Below, piece after piece: positions 527 through 43,901 of a stretch of DNA of 64,000 bases. The notes under the pieces were generated by a model that worked only from the letters and a program-made list of their open reading frames with translations, had not been told where the DNA came from and searched no databases. The translations under genes were made by a program, and so were the position numbers. Numbering within the stretch: the first letter of the stretch is position 1; every line of letters begins with the position of its first letter. Source of the DNA: Candidatus Lindowbacteria bacterium RIFCSPLOWO2_12_FULL_62_27 (GTDB taxonomy: Bacteria > Lindowbacteria > 2-12-FULL-62-27); NCBI GenBank assembly GCA_001784175.1, contig MFPR01000033.1, positions 573 through 64,572 of the forward strand, in the 5' to 3' direction.

Positions 527-943
527 TTACCTGTTCTGGCGGAGATAGCGGCCGATCATGAAGGCCACGCCATCTCTTTGCTCGTCAGTGAGATTAAGCC
601 CTCGCAATATTTCCTCCGGCACTTCTTCTCGGACTGACACAGTACCCACTGTCGATTGAACCGCCTGCCTATTCCACAACAAACAAAAAAATCCACCTCC
701 GTTCGCTCGGATCATCACGGCGAATTCGATCGCTTCACAAAGGCAGAGCAGTTCATGGATTGTCGGCAGACGCTCTTCAGCGAAAAAACGGAATTGTGAG
801 CGTACTGTCAGAGGGCAGACTTTCCCCAAGAAGTCGTAGAGCAACATATGTCCCACCACCTCCGCCGCGAAGTCGCACGACCATGGGTCGTGGACCCCAC
901 CGCCCACTTGCCCAAGTGTGCGCCGGGTCGGAAGTCTATTCAA
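527..943 (-). pseudogene. C-terminal remnant of RecG-like ATP-binding regulator (tentative)
   Basis: A 138-codon frame ending in TAA. Its first 40 residues look like non-coding translation. From about residue 70 it reads like the end of an AlbA_2/HATPase_c_4 (RecG-like) protein: a hydrophobic strand before a GGGF turn and an LW strand, then a segment ending EEILRGLNLTDEQRDGVAF that resembles the helix before the terminal winged helix of that family. The ATPase core and the winged helix are absent, so this would be a fragment. Its base composition is less GC-rich than the genes downstream. No ribosome binding site was found. The family match is by eye only, and it could be a short orphan gene instead. 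Confidence 0.3.
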
Positions 944-1206
944 CTACGACGGAAAAGTGGTCTCCATTTGGTCTCCAGTAGGATGCCAAAACACGACAAA
1001 TTCCGACAAACTGTGAGGGTTGACGCGACGGCAGAGAATGCGGGTTAACTCTCTGATTTATCTGTAACTACGTGATAGCTGAACGACATTCGGAAGTGTT
1101 GCGATTTTCGCCATTAGAAGATTTACAGTCTGCTCTCGTTGTCCACTGGAGCACCTCCCCGGGAACAACGAATCCTTATACTCTAGCCCCTGATGGAGGT
1201 CAACCA

Positions 1207-1576
1207 GTGGGCATACGATGTTCGGATTTATACCGGATCACGGCGACCATCCACCCGGAGAAAAGCCGCGCGATGATCGACGCCGCCGTCGCCCTCGGCG
1301 CGCCGCGCGTATTCATCGTCAAGGGCCGGGGCGTCATGCACGAAAAGAAAATCGGACCTCTGACTGTGCCGGGCCTCTCGCCCTCCTTTGATATCCTGAA
1401 TTTGATCGTGCCCGAAGGAGCGCTGAACCGACGAGCGGGAGATCACCTCGCGGACCATCGGCGAAAAACAGGTCAAACCGATGGTCGAAGCGATCACCGC
1501 GATGCCGGAGCTCGCCGGCACACCGGTCATCCTCTTCGCCTGCCCCTCGCCGCAGGCGCTGACGTATATGAAATAG
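1207..1576 (+). pseudogene. PII-like small regulatory protein, broken by a +1 frameshift
   Basis: GGAGG at 1195-1199 precedes GTG 1207. The frame reads YRITATIHPEKSRAMIDAAV, then a KGRG segment and an LIVPEGAL strand, the layout of a PII/CutA-like ferredoxin fold. At 1426-1427 the sequence has CTGAACC. Removing one A gives L-T-D-E and continues as EITSRTIGEKQVKPMVEAI to TAG at 1574-1576. The repaired protein would be about 122 residues, the usual size for PII. In the uncorrected frame the tail runs to 1662 as arginine-rich nonsense. A sequencing error cannot be excluded. The PII assignment is from the alternating strand/helix pattern and the KGRG motif, not from a search. Confidence 0.5.
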
Positions 1577-1663
1577 CGCGCGGAACTTGCGCAAGAAAAC
1601 GCTGTAAAAAATCCACCGGGTCAACCCTTCCCGGATTCCCCGTGGGTATGCTAAGAAAATAGC

Positions 1664-2047
1664 GTGATGCCCCGAAGATTCTTGGAAAGCCTTTTTGCCT
1701 TTTCGATTTTCATTTTCAGCCCCGTTGCGCTCTGCGTCGGGGTGCCCATTCAATCGTTTGCTCAGATCGAAACGGAAACGCCAGTCCCATCCGGCGAGTC
1801 ACAGGGAGTTGCGGAATCTGAATGCCACCTTTCCGGGTTAAAGACCCGCCGCCGGAGTATCGATTTTTCCACCGGTCGGGCGCCCGTATGGCGGTTGTCG
1901 ATCCACCGGCCCATTTCCGCCGAACATCCGCCGGACGGCGTCCGCCGGACGGATTTCTCCCAAAGGAATCTTTATCAGCGTATCGAGGTTTACCGCATCC
2001 AGAAACGCCCGCCTGTTGTTTGTTCTGCCCGTTTCGGTAATCCATGA
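1664..2047 (+). CDS. Possible secreted orphan protein (weak)
   Basis: A 127-codon frame opening with a plausible signal peptide: basic MMPRRF, a hydrophobic stretch to about residue 25, then a polar QIETETPVPSGES segment. After about residue 55 the translation becomes arginine-rich and loses protein character, which suggests decay or that only the start is real. No good ribosome binding site was found. On the opposite strand, 1838-2140 also gives a protein-like stretch. I see nothing else in 1577-2143. Confidence 0.2.
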   Translation: MMPRRFLESLFAFSIFIFSPVALCVGVPIQSFAQIETETPVPSGESQGVAESECHLSGLKTRRRSIDFSTGRAPVWRLSIHRPISAEHPPDGVRRTDFSQRNLYQRIEVYRIQKRPPVVCSARFGNP

Positions 2048-2143
2048 AGGGATTTCAATTTCAAAAGATGATTTGCCTTGCTCCGTGTGATGTGTGGTGC
2101 GCGGGGTGTCTGATGTGGGAAACAAGATGACCGGAGGTTTGAA

Positions 2144-3874
2144 ATGAATCTGTCGAACTTCAATAAGGCGGCGTATCCGATCCAGGCCCTTTTCAAATAT
2201 ATCTACCGCTGGTTCTTCGCCTGCCCGGACAAGCTTTCCCACTCGAAGATCTCGACCTTTCTCTCCTGTTCGCTCAAATACCATTTCCAGTACGGCAAGA
2301 AATGGCCGACCCGCCTGACGGGGGCGCTCACGTACGGATCCGTCATCCACAAAGTCCTCGAACTCTTTCACGCCCGTTACGACGTCCCGCTGGCCACAGA
2401 GGAGGATATCCTCGATCTTCTGGAGGAGCGCTGGTCGTCGGACGGGTTCAAGACAGCGGAGGAGGAACAGGAATACAAAGCGCGCGGCCGACGGCTTCTT
2501 TCCAAATATCTGGCCGAGGCGAAGGCCCATCCGCCCAATGTTTGGCGGACGGAGCTGTTTGTCGAGGCGACGATCGGCGGTGTCTCGGTGGTCGGCCGGA
2601 TGGACCGGGTGGACCGGGAAGCGGACGGGAGCCTGACGATCGTCGATTACAAAACGGGCGACAAAATGCTGGATCCCGAGTCTCTTCAATCGGACCTTCA
2701 GGCCAATCTGTATTATCTGCTCGGCGAGAAAACCATCGGGCGAAAATTCAAAAAGTTTTTTTACTGGTATCTGGAAAAAGACCGAAAAGTTCCCGTCACG
2801 ATCACGGACGCGGCCCGCAAGGAGACGGAGCAGGTCGTCCGGACCACGGCACACCGGATGCAGTATGACGATCCGAAACCGAAAAAGGGCGTGTTGTGCA
2901 ATTGGTGCGATTATTACGAACGGTGTCCGGCATGGAAGAGCCGCCCCGAACGGCTCTACAAGATCGTCCGCGAATCAGAGGACCGGCTGGGATTGTCCTA
3001 TTCGAAAATCAGCCAATTCCTGAACTGTCCCATGGTCTACAAGAAGGTTTATCTCGACAAAATTTCTCCGAAGCCCAAGGGATTTTTCGCCATCGGCCAC
3101 ACGGTGCATCAGACGATGGAGGAGTTTTACATGTATGACGGCCCGCTGTCCGAACCGCCTCTCGCATGGCTCCTCAAGCTCTATCACGAACACTGGATCG
3201 GGAGGGGCTACGAGTCCAAAGACGCCGAGGAGCAGGTGAGGCGGGAGGGCGAGCAGTGGATGCGGAACTACCACGCCAAATACGTGAAGGGCAAATTCCG
3301 CCGGGGAACTTACAAGGTCGAAGAATACTTCGAATTGCCGCTCGGCCGGCACGCGATCATCGGATACATGGACCGCCTGGACAAAAATGACGACGGCACC
3401 TTCTCGCTCGTTGACTATAAAACCGATCCGGTCATGCGGACGCAGGAGGATGTGAACAAGGACAAGCAGTTGTTTCTCTACGCGTGGGCCTGCAAAAAGC
3501 TGGGCATTCCGCTGCGGGACCAGACATTGATTTTCGTCAAATTCAACGAACACCTCACGACGACGCACACGGAAAAAGACATCGCCGACTTTGAAGCTGA
3601 GATGCTGAAGGTCGCGGACGAGATGGTCGAATCCGAGCGAATCGCGCGTGAGGCGTCGCCCGCGGAAATCGAAAAGCGGTTTGCTCCCAGGATCAACAAA
3701 TACTGCGGCGGCTGTGACTACTTGCCGGTCTGCCCCAAACGCGAGGAAATTCTGACCCAACACAAGGACGAGATCATGCACGCGATTGACGAGACCAAAT
3801 TGAGGGACCGGATTCCCGAAGACGCCGCCGCCGACGTCGAATCGGAACAGCCGGAACCCTCGACCATGCCATGA
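2144..3874 (+). CDS. Tandem PD-(D/E)XK (RecB/Cas4-like) nuclease with two Fe-S cysteine sets
   Basis: A 576-residue protein with the PDDEXK_1 fold twice. Copy 1 (about 26-265) has GRMDRVD, then IVDYKTG with Asp168 and Lys170. Copy 2 (about 285-535) has GYMDRLD, then LVDYKT with Asp424 and Lys426. Each copy carries the four cysteines expected of an AddB/Cas4-type iron-sulfur clamp: Cys42 with Cys252, 255 and 261, and Cys295 with Cys521, 524 and 530. There is no helicase domain. GGAGG at 2133-2137 sets ATG 2144. The likely role is DNA-end processing in repair or DNA uptake; it heads the run that contains comEC. The tandem arrangement in one chain is unusual among RecB-type nucleases known to me. 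Activity is inferred from intact catalytic motifs. Confidence 0.85.
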   Translation: MNLSNFNKAAYPIQALFKYIYRWFFACPDKLSHSKISTFLSCSLKYHFQYGKKWPTRLTGALTYGSVIHKVLELFHARYDVPLATEEDILDLLEERWSSDGFKTAEEEQEYKARGRRLLSKYLAEAKAHPPNVWRTELFVEATIGGVSVVGRMDRVDREADGSLTIVDYKTGDKMLDPESLQSDLQANLYYLLGEKTIGRKFKKFFYWYLEKDRKVPVTITDAARKETEQVVRTTAHRMQYDDPKPKKGVLCNWCDYYERCPAWKSRPERLYKIVRESEDRLGLSYSKISQFLNCPMVYKKVYLDKISPKPKGFFAIGHTVHQTMEEFYMYDGPLSEPPLAWLLKLYHEHWIGRGYESKDAEEQVRREGEQWMRNYHAKYVKGKFRRGTYKVEEYFELPLGRHAIIGYMDRLDKNDDGTFSLVDYKTDPVMRTQEDVNKDKQLFLYAWACKKLGIPLRDQTLIFVKFNEHLTTTHTEKDIADFEAEMLKVADEMVESERIAREASPAEIEKRFAPRINKYCGGCDYLPVCPKREEILTQHKDEIMHAIDETKLRDRIPEDAAADVESEQPEPSTMP

Positions 3875-4113: not shown

Positions 4114-7008
4114 ATGTCCTTAACTCCGGGCCGGATGTTCGATTGGTTCCGATCGAAATCGGGCGCGAAGTTGCCCGCGCGGCGGCCGGAGGTCCTGCGG
4201 CCCAGCCTGAAAAAATCGCCCATCTGGATCCCGCGGCATCTGTTGATCCTGTTTTGTTACGCCTATATTATCGGCATCGTCGCCGGGATGTACGTCTACC
4301 GGATTCCCCCGTCGTTTCTGATGTATGGATACGGCGCGCTCGTCATCAGCTTGCTGGCCGCGATGATGATTGGATTCCTCAAACGCCAGCATGCCTGGAC
4401 CGCCGGCGCCATCGCCCTCGCCGCCACCGCCCTCGGTCTGGTCAACTACTCTCGCGCCCTCGACACATCGGACCCGAGGCATCTGGTTCATTTCGCCGGC
4501 GAGGGCTTTGACGAGCGAGTCACGCTGACGGGTGTGGTGACGTCCGACCCGGACATCCGGGAACGGTACACCAATCTGGTGGTGGAGCCGGTCACGGTCG
4601 AAACCGAAGAGGGTGAGACCGTCCGGCCAAGCGGTGGCGGCGTCATGGTGCGGCTCTATCCGGACAGCCTCGATTCTTATGGGGACTATGCCTACGGCGA
4701 CAGCATTCAGGTCCGGGCGCCGCTGGTCATTCCGCGTCGAGGCGCGAATCCCGGCGCGTTTGACTACCGGCAGTGGCTGATCGAGCGGCAGGGCTGTTAC
4801 GCGACGATGCAGGTGCGTCGAAATTCGGAAATCCAAAGACTGGGCCGGAACCGCACACATTTCCTTGTCGATTTCTCTCTGCGGATGAAGGAAAAAATTC
4901 TCGAGTCGATCCGCCTGACGATGCCCTACCCTGAATCCTCCTTCCTGGGTGGCGTGACCCTCGGCCTGAAGGGCGGTGTGACGCAGAAGACCCGGTTCGA
5001 ATTCCAATCGACCGGCATCGCGCACGTTCTGGCGGTGTCCGGTCTTCATGTGGGATTCGTCGCCGTCCTGCTGCTCATGCTGGCCCATTTGTTCAATCTG
5101 CCGGAGAAATTTCATCCGGTGTTTATCGTTCTGGGGTTGATCGTTTTCTCGATCATCACCGGCGCATCCCCCGCCACCGTCCGCGCGGCCATCATGTTCA
5201 GCATGTTCATCTGCATCCGGTATTACATGACGGGACTGGGGCTCGCGGCGTCGACGCTCCTCACCATTCCCGTCGCGGCCCTCGCGATCCTTCTGTCCAA
5301 TCCCCTGCTCGTGATGGACGCCAGTTTTCTCCTGTCCTTCGGCGCGGTCCTCTCGCTGGGGCTCTTGACATGGCCCCTTCAGATGGTTTTCAACCGCCTC
5401 TTCGTCGGGTTTCGACTGGTGGCGGCGGGACTCACGGTTGTGTTCCTGACATGGATGGCCCACGCGCACTGGGGCATGTTCTTTGATCGCTCGACCGCGC
5501 CGCTGATTTTCGGGAGTCTGGCGATTTTATGGGCCGCGGCTTTTTTGCTCCAGAAAAAATTCCCGACCGCCGTTCCCTACGGATTTACGTCCATCCATCC
5601 GTGGATCGGTTCCTTCATCGCCGCGCAGGTCGCCATCAATCTGGGCAACAGCCCGCTTTTCGCTCTCTACTTTTACCGCCTGTCGATCTCCGGATGGTAC
5701 GCCAATTTCATCGCCATTCCGCTCTGCGGCATCATCGTCCAGCTGGGAATTCTCGCCGGCTTGTTTTATATGATTCCGGTTGTCGGTCCCTATCTGGCCG
5801 CGATGATCAATGGCGGCAACTTCCTCTTTTGCGCGTTTTTCCTGGGCAGCGCGACCTTTTTCGCAAATCATTTTCCGTACCCCTACGTGGGAACGCCGTC
5901 GACGGAATTCGCGGTTGTCTACTACGCCGTCCTTGCGCTGTTTGTCTGGCATCGGCCCATCTGGCATCGAATCAAAACCGTTTACACGTGGTGGCTCTAC
6001 CGGAAGCAGGTTCCGGAAGTCCGCGGCAAACTTTACGCGACGCTGGCCGTGTCGGTTCTTCTGGTCAGCCTCCCGGTGTTCTACGTGATGGGCAACGCCT
6101 CCGGGCCGCGGCTTCGGATCGCCATTCTCGACGTCGGCCAGGGAAGCGTCACGATCATTCGGACGCCGTCGGAAAAGGGCATTCTCGTTGACGGCGCGCC
6201 GTATGACGGCTACCGGGACTTCAACGCCGGCCAGAACATCGTCGCCCCCGCTCTGTCGGATTACGGCATCAACGTCCTGGACCATGTGGTCCTGACGTCG
6301 TTCAAACCCGAGCACATGGGCGGCCTGCCGTTTCTCCTCCGGCAATTTCACGTCAAGGAGTTTGTCGACTGCCTGCCGCCCGAACTGGCCGACGCGAAGA
6401 CGACGTGGGACACGTTTGCCGCGCGACTCGCGAAATCCCCTTACGCGCCGCTTCTGGAAAGCAAATTCACCGACGAAATTTTTGAATCCTATCGAAAGGT
6501 TCTTGAGGCGGTCGAGGAGAAGCGGGCACGCAGGACCCATCCATCGCAAGGGCGCGTGATTCACGAAGAACAGACGCCGTACGGCATCCTGCGCGTTTCA
6601 ACCGTGGCACTGCCTGACACGGGGCTTTCCATCCCGATGCGGACCGCGCTGGTCAAAATTGAGTGGGGTCCGACCTGGTCGGTTCTTCTGACCGGGGATA
6701 TGACGGAAACGGAGATGGCTCTGGCCGCGAAGACCGACTCCGCCGCGCTCGACGCCGCCGTTCTCTTGTTGCCCTCTCACGGACAGGTTTTCGAGAAGTC
6801 GTTCCTCTCGGCCGTATCGCCCCGATACGCGGTGGCTCAATCCAGGTTGCCCTTCCGGCGGCGGGCCGCCAAGCCGCATGGGACGGAAGAGGAACTGGTA
6901 AACTATTTTCAAAAGGAAGGGGGCACCTATTTTCAGACCAACAAAAACGGCGCGATCCTGATCGAAAGCGACGGAAAACGGTTTTCCGTCAGGCCATATA
7001 CGCCCTAG
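4114..7008 (+). CDS. comEC: ComEC/Rec2 family DNA-uptake channel
   Basis: 964 residues in the usual three parts: N-terminal membrane region with a DUF4131-like domain (about 40-250), the Competence channel domain (about 270-560, with the HVLAVSGLHVGF signature), and a C-terminal metallo-beta-lactamase-like domain (about 660-960, beginning near ILDVGQGSV). ComEC transports single-stranded DNA across the inner membrane during transformation. The metal-binding motif of the last domain, normally HxHxDH, reads S-F-K-P-E-H at 729-734, and the later HHGS-type motif is PSHG, so the hydrolase site looks degenerate. ATG 4114 lies 2 bp after the upstream stop. Confidence 0.9.
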   Translation: MSLTPGRMFDWFRSKSGAKLPARRPEVLRPSLKKSPIWIPRHLLILFCYAYIIGIVAGMYVYRIPPSFLMYGYGALVISLLAAMMIGFLKRQHAWTAGAIALAATALGLVNYSRALDTSDPRHLVHFAGEGFDERVTLTGVVTSDPDIRERYTNLVVEPVTVETEEGETVRPSGGGVMVRLYPDSLDSYGDYAYGDSIQVRAPLVIPRRGANPGAFDYRQWLIERQGCYATMQVRRNSEIQRLGRNRTHFLVDFSLRMKEKILESIRLTMPYPESSFLGGVTLGLKGGVTQKTRFEFQSTGIAHVLAVSGLHVGFVAVLLLMLAHLFNLPEKFHPVFIVLGLIVFSIITGASPATVRAAIMFSMFICIRYYMTGLGLAASTLLTIPVAALAILLSNPLLVMDASFLLSFGAVLSLGLLTWPLQMVFNRLFVGFRLVAAGLTVVFLTWMAHAHWGMFFDRSTAPLIFGSLAILWAAAFLLQKKFPTAVPYGFTSIHPWIGSFIAAQVAINLGNSPLFALYFYRLSISGWYANFIAIPLCGIIVQLGILAGLFYMIPVVGPYLAAMINGGNFLFCAFFLGSATFFANHFPYPYVGTPSTEFAVVYYAVLALFVWHRPIWHRIKTVYTWWLYRKQVPEVRGKLYATLAVSVLLVSLPVFYVMGNASGPRLRIAILDVGQGSVTIIRTPSEKGILVDGAPYDGYRDFNAGQNIVAPALSDYGINVLDHVVLTSFKPEHMGGLPFLLRQFHVKEFVDCLPPELADAKTTWDTFAARLAKSPYAPLLESKFTDEIFESYRKVLEAVEEKRARRTHPSQGRVIHEEQTPYGILRVSTVALPDTGLSIPMRTALVKIEWGPTWSVLLTGDMTETEMALAAKTDSAALDAAVLLLPSHGQVFEKSFLSAVSPRYAVAQSRLPFRRRAAKPHGTEEELVNYFQKEGGTYFQTNKNGAILIESDGKRFSVRPYTP

Positions 7009-40323: not shown

Positions 40324-40402
40324 ATCACAACCACATTGTGATCCAGATCACACACATTGTGTGAGACCGTAATCCCCTGAAATCACGAGGATTGTGTATT
40401 AA
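40324..40402 (+). promoter_or_regulatory. CRP-like operator cluster and candidate promoter of the papain-kelch gene
   Basis: TGTGATCCAGATCACA (40337-40352) matches the CRP consensus TGTGA-N6-TCACA exactly. It is flanked by further half-sites: ATCACAA (40324-40330) pairs with TTGTGAT (40336-40342), and CACACA/TGTGTG around a single T is centred near 40357. A possible -10 box, TATTAA, lies at 40397-40402, which would put the perfect site about 64 bases upstream of the transcription start, close to the activating position of CRP. The rest of 40263-40508 is leader without genes. Confidence 0.6.
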
Positions 40403-40508
40403 TGTCCGCCCTTCCACTTTTCTGCACGCTTGTTGCAACCCTCCTATCAGTTCGCATGGCGAACGAATCTGGAACGTGAGATGGAAATTGCAAGGGGGTA
40501 CAAGAATC

Positions 40509-43500
40509 ATGAAAAGGTCGAGCACCCTATGGATCGTCGGTTTGATCGTAAGCATTTTGTTCGGTTGGGGCTGGACAGGTCTGGCGATTGCGGCCCACGA
40601 CAAGGACGAATGTCCGCTTCCGAAGTCATTCACCATAGACAAGAAATTCTATGAATGGCGCGAAAAGCGGGCGCCTCTCCATATTAAAAGGAAGCTCGAT
40701 GAGCTTCGGCGCTGTAACAATCCCCGCGCCGCAAGTCACAAAGGACACGCGCACGCGTCCTATGAAGTCGCATACACGACGGCCTTGGACCGGCAGTTGC
40801 GGCATCTCGCAGGCACGCGCGTGCCGTCCAAGTTCAACTTCCAGGCGGCGCTCCGCAAGCAGAAATTGCGGCTGACTTCGACGGCCACCGGCGGCGACAC
40901 CACGTCGGCCCCGACGTCCGGCACATCCGGCGCGCCTTCGGCGGACCTCGCGGTCTTCAGTTGGGTCGATCTCGGCAAGGTGACGCCGGTGAAGGACCAG
41001 GGGTATTGCGGCAGTTGCTGGGACTTCGGCGCGACGAGCGCGCTCGAAGGCAGCTACGCGATCATCAACAATCAACTGATCGACGCGTCCGAGCAGGACG
41101 AGCTGAACTACAGCCCGTGGAGCTGCGCGGGCGGCTGGCATGACGACGCGGCCCAGGACATGGTGAACGTCGGCATCACGACCGAACCGATCGAGCCTTA
41201 CAAGGCGGTCGACATGACATGGAATCCGTCGCACCCGCGGCCCTACAAGGCCGAGTCGACGGGCTGGGTGCCGATCCCGTGGCAGTTTTCCGATTCGCAG
41301 ACGAAGGTGTTGAAGCAGTACCTCACATCCCATGGCCCGCTGGCGGTGGCGGTGAACGCGGACTACCCGTTCATGGCATACGCCTCAGGCGTGTTTGTCG
41401 GCACGTACAATACGACGTACATCAATCACGTCGTGACGATCGTCGGATGGGACGACAGTAAGCAAGCGTGGCTGATCAAGAACTCGTGGGGCACCGGCTG
41501 GGGCATGGGCGGCTACATGTGGATCAAGTACGGCACGAACGCCATCGGCCTCTACCCGGTGTGGGTCAAGGCCAAGCCGGCGGTTCAACCCACCGTCGAC
41601 ATGCCGGTCATTCAGCCGGTCTCCGGGACGTACACGACGACCCTGACAAACGTGACGATGACCTGCGCCACGAGCGGGGCGTCGATCCGTTACACGACCG
41701 ACGGCGCCGCGCCGACGGAGTTTTCGACGCTGTACACGGCGCCGCTCACGGTCATCAAGTCGACCACGATCCGGGCGCGGGCGTTCAAGTCTGACATGAA
41801 CCCCAGCGCCGAGGCGATGGTGTTGTACACCATCAATCTGCCGACGGTCGCCACGCCGGAGATTTATCCGAAGTCGAAGACGTTCTCGACGTCCTTCGGC
41901 GCCAGCGTGTCCTGCAGCACCTGGACGGCGTCGATCCGCTACACGGTCGACGGCGCGCTTCCGACAGAAACCTCGACCCTCTATACGGGTCAGGTGACTG
42001 TCAGCAAATCGATGGTGTTCCGGGCGCGCGCGTTTCAGTGGAACATGTTGCCGAGCAAGGACGCGACGGAGACCTATACGCTCCAGGCGCCGGCCGGCGG
42101 CTGGACGGCGATGGCGCCCATGCCGACGGCGCGGGCCGAGCTGGCCGCGGCGGCGGCGGGCGATGTCGTGTATGCGGTGGGCGGATACAGTTGGTACAAC
42201 TCCGCCGCCAACCGCACGGTCGAGGCGTATAACATGCAGACCAATACGTGGACGATCAAGGCGCAGATGCCGACGGGACGCTGGATGCTGGCGGCCGCGA
42301 CGGTATGGGGCCGCATCTACGCGGTGGGCGGCTGCCCGAGCGGATTCACGCCGACGAACAAGCTGGACGAATACGATCCGTGGACCAACACGTGGAAGGC
42401 GCTGGCGCCGATGCCGGTCGCGCGGTACCGGATGGCGGCCGCGGGATTGGACGGAAAAGTCTACGTGGCGGGCGGGATCACTTCGTACGGTGTGACCGGG
42501 ATGCTCCATGTTTACGATCTGAATCCGCAGGCCTGGTCCACCCTGCCGTCCATGCCGACGGCGCGGTTTGACGCGGGCGCGGCCATCGCCGACGGCAAGC
42601 TCTACGTGATCGGCGGCGCGGCCTACGGCGGCGTCAAGCTGAAAACGGTGGAGTGCTACGATCCGGTCGCGAAGACGTGGTCGACGAAAGCCGCGATGCC
42701 GACGGCGCGCGCGAGCCTCTCGGTGGTACAGCACGCCGGCAAGCTCTACGCGATCGGCGGGCAGGACGCGAACGGCGCGAAGCTCACGACGGTAGAAGTC
42801 TACGATCCGAAGGCCAACACGTGGTCGACCGGCGCGCCGATGCCGACGGCCCGGTACCTGCTGGCGGCCGCGGCGGTCGCCAACAAGGGCATCTCCGTCG
42901 TCGGCGGCTACGACGCCTCCGGCGTGATGACGTCCAAAAACGAGGTCTTCACCGGCGGCGACAGCGGAACCCCGTCGCCAACGCCGACGCCCACGCCCGC
43001 GCCGGACTCTGGGATGACGTGGGTCTCCAAGAAGGCCATGGTCGTCGCGGCGGCGGAACTGGCCGCCTGCGTCGACAACGGGATCGTGTACCACATTAAC
43101 GGCTATAACCCGTCCTTCGGCACGTTCACGACCCTCAACTCCTACGACCCCACGACCAACGTCTGGACCATCCGCCCGAATCCGCCGACCTACAAGCGGA
43201 TGCTGGCGGCGGCGGCCGTCAACGGCATCGTCTACGCCGTCGGCGGCGCCACCCCGGGCGTCTACGCAACGGCCGACCTCATGGCCTTCAACCCAGCGAC
43301 GAACTCGTGGTCCTACAAGGCGTCCATGCCGACGGCGCGCTACGCGCTGGCGGCGGCCGAACTCAACGGCAAACTCTACGCGGCCGGCGGCGCGGGGCCT
43401 TACATTACGAACACGGTGCAAGTGTACACCCCGACGTACAACTCCTGGACCACGCTCCCGTCGATGCCGACGGCGCGGATGAACTGCGGCGCGGCCTCGG

Positions 43501-43901
43501 CCGACGGCAAACTCTACGTGATCGGCGGCTGGGCCAGCACTTTTGCGGTGAGCGGCGCGGTAGAGTGCTACGATCCGGTGACCAACACGTGGACGACCAA
43601 GGCGCCGATGCCGACGCCGCGCTCGGACCTGGCAGTGACGGCCTACAACGGCAAGATCTACGCCTGCGGCGGCAACATCGCGGGCGGCGCGATCGTCTCG
43701 ACGGTCGAGGTCTACGATCCGAAGACCAACACGTGGACCAAGGAAACCCCGATGCCGGTCGTCAAACGCCAGTTCGCAGCGGTAGGCGTCGCGACCAAGG
43801 GCGTCTTCACCCTGGGCGGCTACGGCGAATCCTACGCCACGCTCTCGCGCGTCGACGCGCTAGTCCCGGCCAACGCCACGTCCCTGGCGCTGGCCAAGTG
43901 A
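40509..43901 (+). CDS. Secreted papain-like cysteine protease with two CHB_HEX-type domains and two kelch propellers
   Basis: 1130 residues from ATG 40509, with AAGGGGG at 40492-40498. The longer frame from 40392 lacks a ribosome site, and ATG 40509 gives a good signal peptide (MKRSSTLWIVGLIVSILFGW). A charged pro-region (about 30-130) does not resemble I29. The C1A peptidase (about 145-360) has the full active site: Gln164, Cys170 (CGSCW), His307 (INHVVTIVGWDD) and Asn325 (KNSWGTGWG). Two chitobiase-C/Fn3-like domains follow (about 364-528, each with SIRYT-DGA-PTE-STLYT). Twelve kelch repeats form two six-bladed propellers (about 530-817 and 835-1124), joined by a TPSPTPTPTPAP linker. It is likely an extracellular or surface protease whose propellers bind targets. 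Confidence 0.92.
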   Translation: MKRSSTLWIVGLIVSILFGWGWTGLAIAAHDKDECPLPKSFTIDKKFYEWREKRAPLHIKRKLDELRRCNNPRAASHKGHAHASYEVAYTTALDRQLRHLAGTRVPSKFNFQAALRKQKLRLTSTATGGDTTSAPTSGTSGAPSADLAVFSWVDLGKVTPVKDQGYCGSCWDFGATSALEGSYAIINNQLIDASEQDELNYSPWSCAGGWHDDAAQDMVNVGITTEPIEPYKAVDMTWNPSHPRPYKAESTGWVPIPWQFSDSQTKVLKQYLTSHGPLAVAVNADYPFMAYASGVFVGTYNTTYINHVVTIVGWDDSKQAWLIKNSWGTGWGMGGYMWIKYGTNAIGLYPVWVKAKPAVQPTVDMPVIQPVSGTYTTTLTNVTMTCATSGASIRYTTDGAAPTEFSTLYTAPLTVIKSTTIRARAFKSDMNPSAEAMVLYTINLPTVATPEIYPKSKTFSTSFGASVSCSTWTASIRYTVDGALPTETSTLYTGQVTVSKSMVFRARAFQWNMLPSKDATETYTLQAPAGGWTAMAPMPTARAELAAAAAGDVVYAVGGYSWYNSAANRTVEAYNMQTNTWTIKAQMPTGRWMLAAATVWGRIYAVGGCPSGFTPTNKLDEYDPWTNTWKALAPMPVARYRMAAAGLDGKVYVAGGITSYGVTGMLHVYDLNPQAWSTLPSMPTARFDAGAAIADGKLYVIGGAAYGGVKLKTVECYDPVAKTWSTKAAMPTARASLSVVQHAGKLYAIGGQDANGAKLTTVEVYDPKANTWSTGAPMPTARYLLAAAAVANKGISVVGGYDASGVMTSKNEVFTGGDSGTPSPTPTPTPAPDSGMTWVSKKAMVVAAAELAACVDNGIVYHINGYNPSFGTFTTLNSYDPTTNVWTIRPNPPTYKRMLAAAAVNGIVYAVGGATPGVYATADLMAFNPATNSWSYKASMPTARYALAAAELNGKLYAAGGAGPYITNTVQVYTPTYNSWTTLPSMPTARMNCGAASADGKLYVIGGWASTFAVSGAVECYDPVTNTWTTKAPMPTPRSDLAVTAYNGKIYACGGNIAGGAIVSTVEVYDPKTNTWTKETPMPVVKRQFAAVGVATKGVFTLGGYGESYATLSRVDALVPANATSLALAK

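Follow-up and report, generated by a model that had tools for sequence, protein, structure and literature searches.

The most familiar role of kelch propellers is that of substrate receptors in eukaryotic ubiquitin ligases. Peptidases of the papain/cathepsin L type (family C1A) combine a PF00112 catalytic domain with an I29-type propeptide. In prokaryotes, C1A genes are reported to be few, and a survey of papain-family peptidases published in 2023 noted, without analysing them, that multidomain proteins are numerous among the C1A peptidases of prokaryotes (PMC10380794).

The gene described here lies in a 64,000-nucleotide stretch of DNA that was analysed as a whole (the window) and encodes a C1A peptidase followed by two CHB_HEX_C_1 domains and two kelch propellers (the C1A-kelch protein; Table 1). 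The genome of the window (G000) and its two sister genomes (G001 and G002) represent the sampled phylum.

Table 1. Features of the C1A-kelch gene and its upstream region, in positions of the window
Feature	Position	Strand	Basis or remark
CRP-type palindrome, perfect, TGTGATCCAGATCACA	40337..40352	.	156 bp 5′ of start codon; 18 in genome versus 0 for mirrored control
Shine-Dalgarno-like AAGGGGGT	40492..40499	+	5′ of ATG 40509; by eye on sequence
Coding sequence, entire, 1130 aa	40509..43901	+	Open frame, ATG at 40509, open to stop at 43901
Putative signal peptide, aa 1-29 (MKRSS, hydrophobic core, AIAA), no lipobox	40509..40595	+	By eye on sequence
Predicted I29-like propeptide, aa 45 to ~120	40641..40868	+	Predicted fold, pro-enzyme match, profile alignment, kept in relatives
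Ser/Thr/Gly-rich linker, aa 121-145, where activation cleavage is presumed	40869..40943	+	Sequence, low pLDDT
Peptidase C1A catalytic domain, aa 146-352	40944..41564	+	Pfam, alignment
Catalytic residues Q164; C170; H307; N325	40998-41000; 41016-41018; 41427-41429; 41481-41483	+	Alignment
CHB_HEX_C_1 domain 1, aa 370-434	41616..41810	+	Profile match
CHB_HEX_C_1 domain 2, ~aa 454-516	41868..42056	+	Profile match
Kelch propeller 1, six repeats, aa 530-816	42096..42956	+	Pfam, repeats, model
Pro/Thr-rich inter-propeller linker GTPSPTPTPTPAP	42957..43019	+	Sequence
Kelch propeller 2, six repeats, aa 838-1123, 48% identical to propeller 1	43020..43877	+	Pfam, repeats, alignment

Architecture of the C1A-kelch protein

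A sequence-only reading of the gene had proposed a secreted C1A protease with a full catalytic set, fused to two CHB_HEX-type domains and to twelve kelch repeats forming two propellers, and this architecture is borne out by the frame, the N-terminus and Pfam. Peptidase_C1 was matched at residues 151-345 (E-value 5.8e-42), CHB_HEX_C_1 in two stretches (2.1e-32) and Kelch_1 in nine stretches (7.8e-99), all well over the cut-offs, and these E-values exclude chance. The typical export signal at the N-terminus suggests that the protein is exported, and no anchor or sorting signal of a known type is visible in it. The CHB_HEX_C_1 pair, confirmed at the sequence level, scored 111.3 bits against a Pfam gathering score of 22 (72.9 and 53.8 bits for the single copies). 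That the fusion is an artefact of draft-genome assembly is extremely improbable: the genome is in 44 contigs and a second copy of the architecture was not found, but the 1130-codon frame is unbroken, its codon usage matches, its G+C content resembles that of its surroundings, and the gene is distant from the contig ends.

The predicted model of residues 355-1130 recovered propeller 1 as a six-bladed kelch propeller (pLDDT 93-98), which matched the kelch domain 5yy8 with a VIA Z of 40.8 and Keap1/KLHL-type kelch domains with a Z of 38-41. Propeller 2 was modelled with lower confidence, and the count of twelve repeats in two propellers holds for it by sequence, with GG and W at the fixed spacing that is characteristic of kelch. 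Repeats 6 and 12 are without the final Trp segment, the pattern that would be seen if each group of six formed one closed propeller with the segment in front of its first repeat. In register, 48% of positions are identical between the propellers, and this similarity suggests that an entire propeller was duplicated within the gene. The CHB_HEX_C_1 domains failed to model, since the alignment contained no relatives for them.

Binding, as the sequence-only reading had supposed, is a plausible role for the propellers: the folds nearest to propeller 1 are Keap1/KLHL-type binding propellers and designed propellers, which suggests non-catalytic binding modules. Pfam also reports the NANM and galactose-oxidase-central-domain kelch models, so that a bifunctional enzyme, with propellers carrying an activity of their own such as that of a sugar epimerase or of galactose oxidase, was considered. 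This is very unlikely, as the nearest folds are those of binding propellers and the NCBIfam models for cyclically permuted mutarotase, NanM and YjhT scored 57-84 bits against cut-offs of 243-416; an assignment to galactose oxidase or to NanM-type enzymes was rejected on these scores.

To assess how rare the combination is, ~185 C1A loci were examined (79 in named genomes, 80 on viral contigs and the rest among the matches listed for other genomes). Using phmmer and a profile of the 12 repeats, neither kelch nor CHB was found in any other C1A frame among the matches listed, some of these loci having little flank. Neither was a second C1A plus kelch frame found in 386 genomes across Bacteria, two candidates per genome being scored, or in the small phyla of genomes G290, G257 and G059, and in plasmid records the matches listed were to the kelch half of the protein. 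No description of C1A with kelch was found in the literature searched, which mostly did not extend to subscription papers or InterPro architecture tables. That the architecture is unusual, as the sequence-only reading had it, is supported. The combination of C1A, CHB and kelch looks rare, and uniqueness is not claimed: the statement is a limited one because it covers two candidates per genome, loci with little flank and listed matches.

A C1A core with a pro-region of this kind is nothing unusual and occurs widely. The tails of other C1A proteins are PKD, dockerin, fn3, PPC, sorting and other domains, or there is none. In 22 of the 61 long bacterial C1A relatives (L054-L123), a chagasin (Inhibitor_I42) domain is present in the chain and may be a built-in inhibitor of another kind. 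Genome G257 has at least 18 C1A matches, an unusual number. On the phage-like viral contig 3300034521_000152 (L231), a kelch protein and a separate papain-like protease are encoded 1 kb apart (2842-3813 and 4833-5900), the latter carrying a copper amine oxidase N-terminal domain. A weak CHB_HEX_C_1 match was also seen elsewhere in G000 (C2, ~89187-89279, minus strand; L044), in a giant gene with an open frame of 22,286 codons.

Pro-region and catalytic domain

The absence of an I29 propeptide had been noted from the sequence, and for the Pfam I29 model this stands, as no match was found at E-values up to 1. It does not stand for the predicted fold. A model of residues 29-364, built from an alignment of 51 sequences, has a mean pLDDT of 88.4 (>90 in the core of the pro-region), and the pro-enzymes 7pck, 3tnx, 4qrx and 1pci match it with a Z of 29-31 over 258-269 residues (255-271 across the matches to procathepsin K, propapain and procaricain), which takes in both pro-region and catalytic domain. 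The best matches were pro-enzymes, with a Z of 31.4 for procathepsin K (269 residues) and for propapain 3tnx (267 residues) and of 29.3 for procaricain (262 residues). The pro-enzyme alignments begin at model residue 17 or 18, whereas mature enzymes align solely from model residue 116-118 (~203 residues, range 201-207; Z ~28-29; 1.2-1.5 Å), residue 1 of mature papain falling at model residue 118, that is, aa 146. The pLDDT is low at model residues 108-110, within the Ser/Thr/Gly-rich linker. Moreover, the family profile aligns with the end of a procathepsin L propeptide, and relatives in many phyla share, at the same place, a pro-region motif of roughly IK-x-x-L-x-x-LR ... F-x-VGYT-x-A-x-D-x-x-L-x-x-L-x-G-x-x-x-P.

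Residues 45 to ~120 are therefore predicted to adopt the propeptide fold of procathepsin K, propapain and procaricain, so that predicted structure and profile alignment, and not Pfam I29, point to an I29-type propeptide. Since model and profile both match pro-enzymes over the pro-region, activation as a papain-type zymogen is the simplest reading, against the earlier suggestion that activation may differ from that of papain; superposition with the pro-enzymes also predicts that the pro-region sits in the cleft. Divergent I29-type propeptides of bacterial papain homologues can thus escape Pfam, and a failed I29 match is not to be taken as absence of a zymogen.

In the catalytic domain, the four catalytic residues, numbered exactly as in the sequence-only reading, do not vary when the sequence is aligned with eight other bacterial C1A proteins, and W327 follows the Asn. 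The QGxCGSCW and NSWG motifs and every catalytic and oxyanion residue are kept, and the model has the papain fold. C167 and C206 (papain C22-C63) are present, and both cysteines of a second papain disulphide are absent. The closest relatives among C1A sequences belong to an Anaerolineae MAG, Methanosaeta, Methanosarcina and a deltaproteobacterial MAG. In the tree, the domain falls inside a clade of 18 (support 100/99), on a branch of 1.46 as compared with 0.1-0.5 in its neighbours (at least three times longer); with this very long branch and the lost disulphide cysteines, specificity may have shifted. No close relative suited to a test of purifying selection was found.

The long branch and the loss of a conserved disulphide pair could also be signs of a decaying or inactive protease in a chain that acts by binding alone, as could the gene's being the sole C1A gene in G000, with none among the matches listed in either sister. 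This is quite unlikely. The same pair is missing in two cyanobacterial relatives whose motifs are intact, and the complete active site, together with the retained motifs and propeptide, argues for divergence and not decay. The protease is very probably active.

Kelch proteins and a CRP-type operator in the phylum

Two observations go beyond the sequence-only reading: a sister genome encodes an M4-kelch protease, and this gene and the C1A-kelch gene have a CRP-type operator in common. Both sisters have kelch proteins. In G002, one frame (L134) encodes an FTP propeptide, a thermolysin-type M4 peptidase and kelch repeats, apparently another exported protease, of an unrelated type, that bears kelch repeats, and the phylum also has exported kelch proteins with no recognised protease domain (L136, L137, L331 and L332).

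A perfect TGTGA-N6-TCACA palindrome lies 156 bp upstream of the start of the C1A-kelch gene, 159 bp upstream of the M4-kelch gene and, in G001, 157 bp upstream of a gene for an exported kelch protein, these distances being uncertain because gene starts were picked by a simple script; another operator precedes a third kelch protein in G002. In total, four of the eight kelch frames counted across the three genomes have the operator close upstream, where the chance of a perfect operator in a 300-bp stretch is ~1/1000. Perfect operators number 18 in G000, 10 in G001 and 5 in G002, and the mirrored control gave 0 in each. Between G000 and a sister genome, the operator is kept at orthologous exported genes (L306/L337, L314/L342 and L315/L335); others are near ordinary metabolic genes, for example that of pyruvate phosphate dikinase. 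CRP-family regulators are encoded in all three genomes, with five strong HTH_Crp_2 proteins in G000, one of which has STRETT in its recognition helix. G000 therefore has both an enriched upstream operator and an encoded CRP-family regulator, as expected of a CRP/FNR regulon.

Together, the sites at kelch genes, those at orthologs and the encoded CRP-family proteins support a predicted CRP-type regulon rich in exported proteins, and one genetic switch seems to be common to a small group of exported proteins with kelch repeats. Upstream of the C1A-kelch gene, no sigma-70 promoter consensus was found, and its leader has no credible riboswitch or other Rfam RNA; conserved RNA structure was inconsistent among three leaders (z of 0.07, −1.3 and −2.9).

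Two other regions of G000 were recorded. One (L308; C6:249000-261000) has five perfect palindromes in 5 kb (sites 3560, 5837, 6372, 7888 and 8423), of which 7888 and 8423 lie close to or inside the beginning of the frame of a beta-helix/NHL protein. The other (L313; C30:66000-72000) has an exported frame (604-2802, minus strand) with kelch-like repeats (DTIYAFQGG / TWDTKA) unrecognised by Pfam at 1e-5, and two CRP-type sites at its 5′ end.

The kelch proteins without a recognised protease domain, and the operator upstream of such proteins, would fit another role, in which the propellers are a structural component of the surface or matrix and the protease acts mainly on its own chain or on kelch proteins nearby, as a maturing enzyme and a tool of maturation and not of targeted digestion. 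Kelch repeats after an unrelated M4 protease suit targeting better, and we consider the structural role unlikely.

Proposed action and comparison with known systems

It is reasonably probable that the C1A-kelch protein is a secreted C1A zymogen endopeptidase, targeted by its propellers and probably under CRP/FNR-family control; we infer its activity, binding role, regulation and location, while what was computed directly comprises the domains, the residues of the active site, the predicted folds of the propeptide and of propeller 1, and the operator with its recurrence. The signal peptide would take the protein over the inner membrane with the I29-like propeptide covering the active-site cleft. 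Removal of the propeptide within the Ser/Thr/Gly-rich stretch (~120 to 146), possibly by self-activation, would then free the Cys170-His307-Asn325 enzyme. The two CHB_HEX_C_1 domains may be beta-sandwich spacers, and both six-bladed propellers, which presumably arose by duplication of a single one inside the gene, would keep the enzyme attached to a protein target, a glycan or a matrix. Expression, together with that of other exported proteins, is probably controlled by a CRP/FNR-family regulator at the upstream operator.

More tentatively, kelch propellers might serve in this phylum as interchangeable targeting modules that were joined independently to C1A and M4 proteases under a common CRP-type switch, which would be an undescribed form of propeller-guided extracellular proteolysis. 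With propellers and protease in one exported chain, and the M4 parallel, bacteria may direct extracellular proteolysis via kelch. As a modular scaffold of a known protease and a known binding fold, the protein lets the role of propellers in substrate choice be tested.

With papain and cathepsin L-like enzymes, the C1A-kelch protein shares the catalytic set, the fold and a pro-region that superposes on solved pro-enzymes, that region being too divergent for Pfam I29 to match; it differs from papain in clearly keeping one disulphide (C167-C206) and in its C-terminal CHB and kelch domains. Like secreted multidomain C1A peptidases of prokaryotes, it has a signal peptide, a pro-region and a C1A core with variable C-terminal domains, yet many of those have chagasin in the chain and, among the matches listed, none was found with kelch or CHB. 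Propeller 1 shares its fold and the kelch motif with the six-bladed Keap1/KLHL propellers, whereas the protein itself is bacterial, apparently exported, without BTB/BACK, and has its propellers in tandem. The M4-kelch protein of G002 is likewise a putatively exported protease that carries a propeptide and kelch repeats and has the operator upstream, but its catalytic fold is unrelated, its kelch region is single and it is without CHB domains. Compared with all these systems, the C1A-kelch protein is a known enzyme in an unusual combination of domains.
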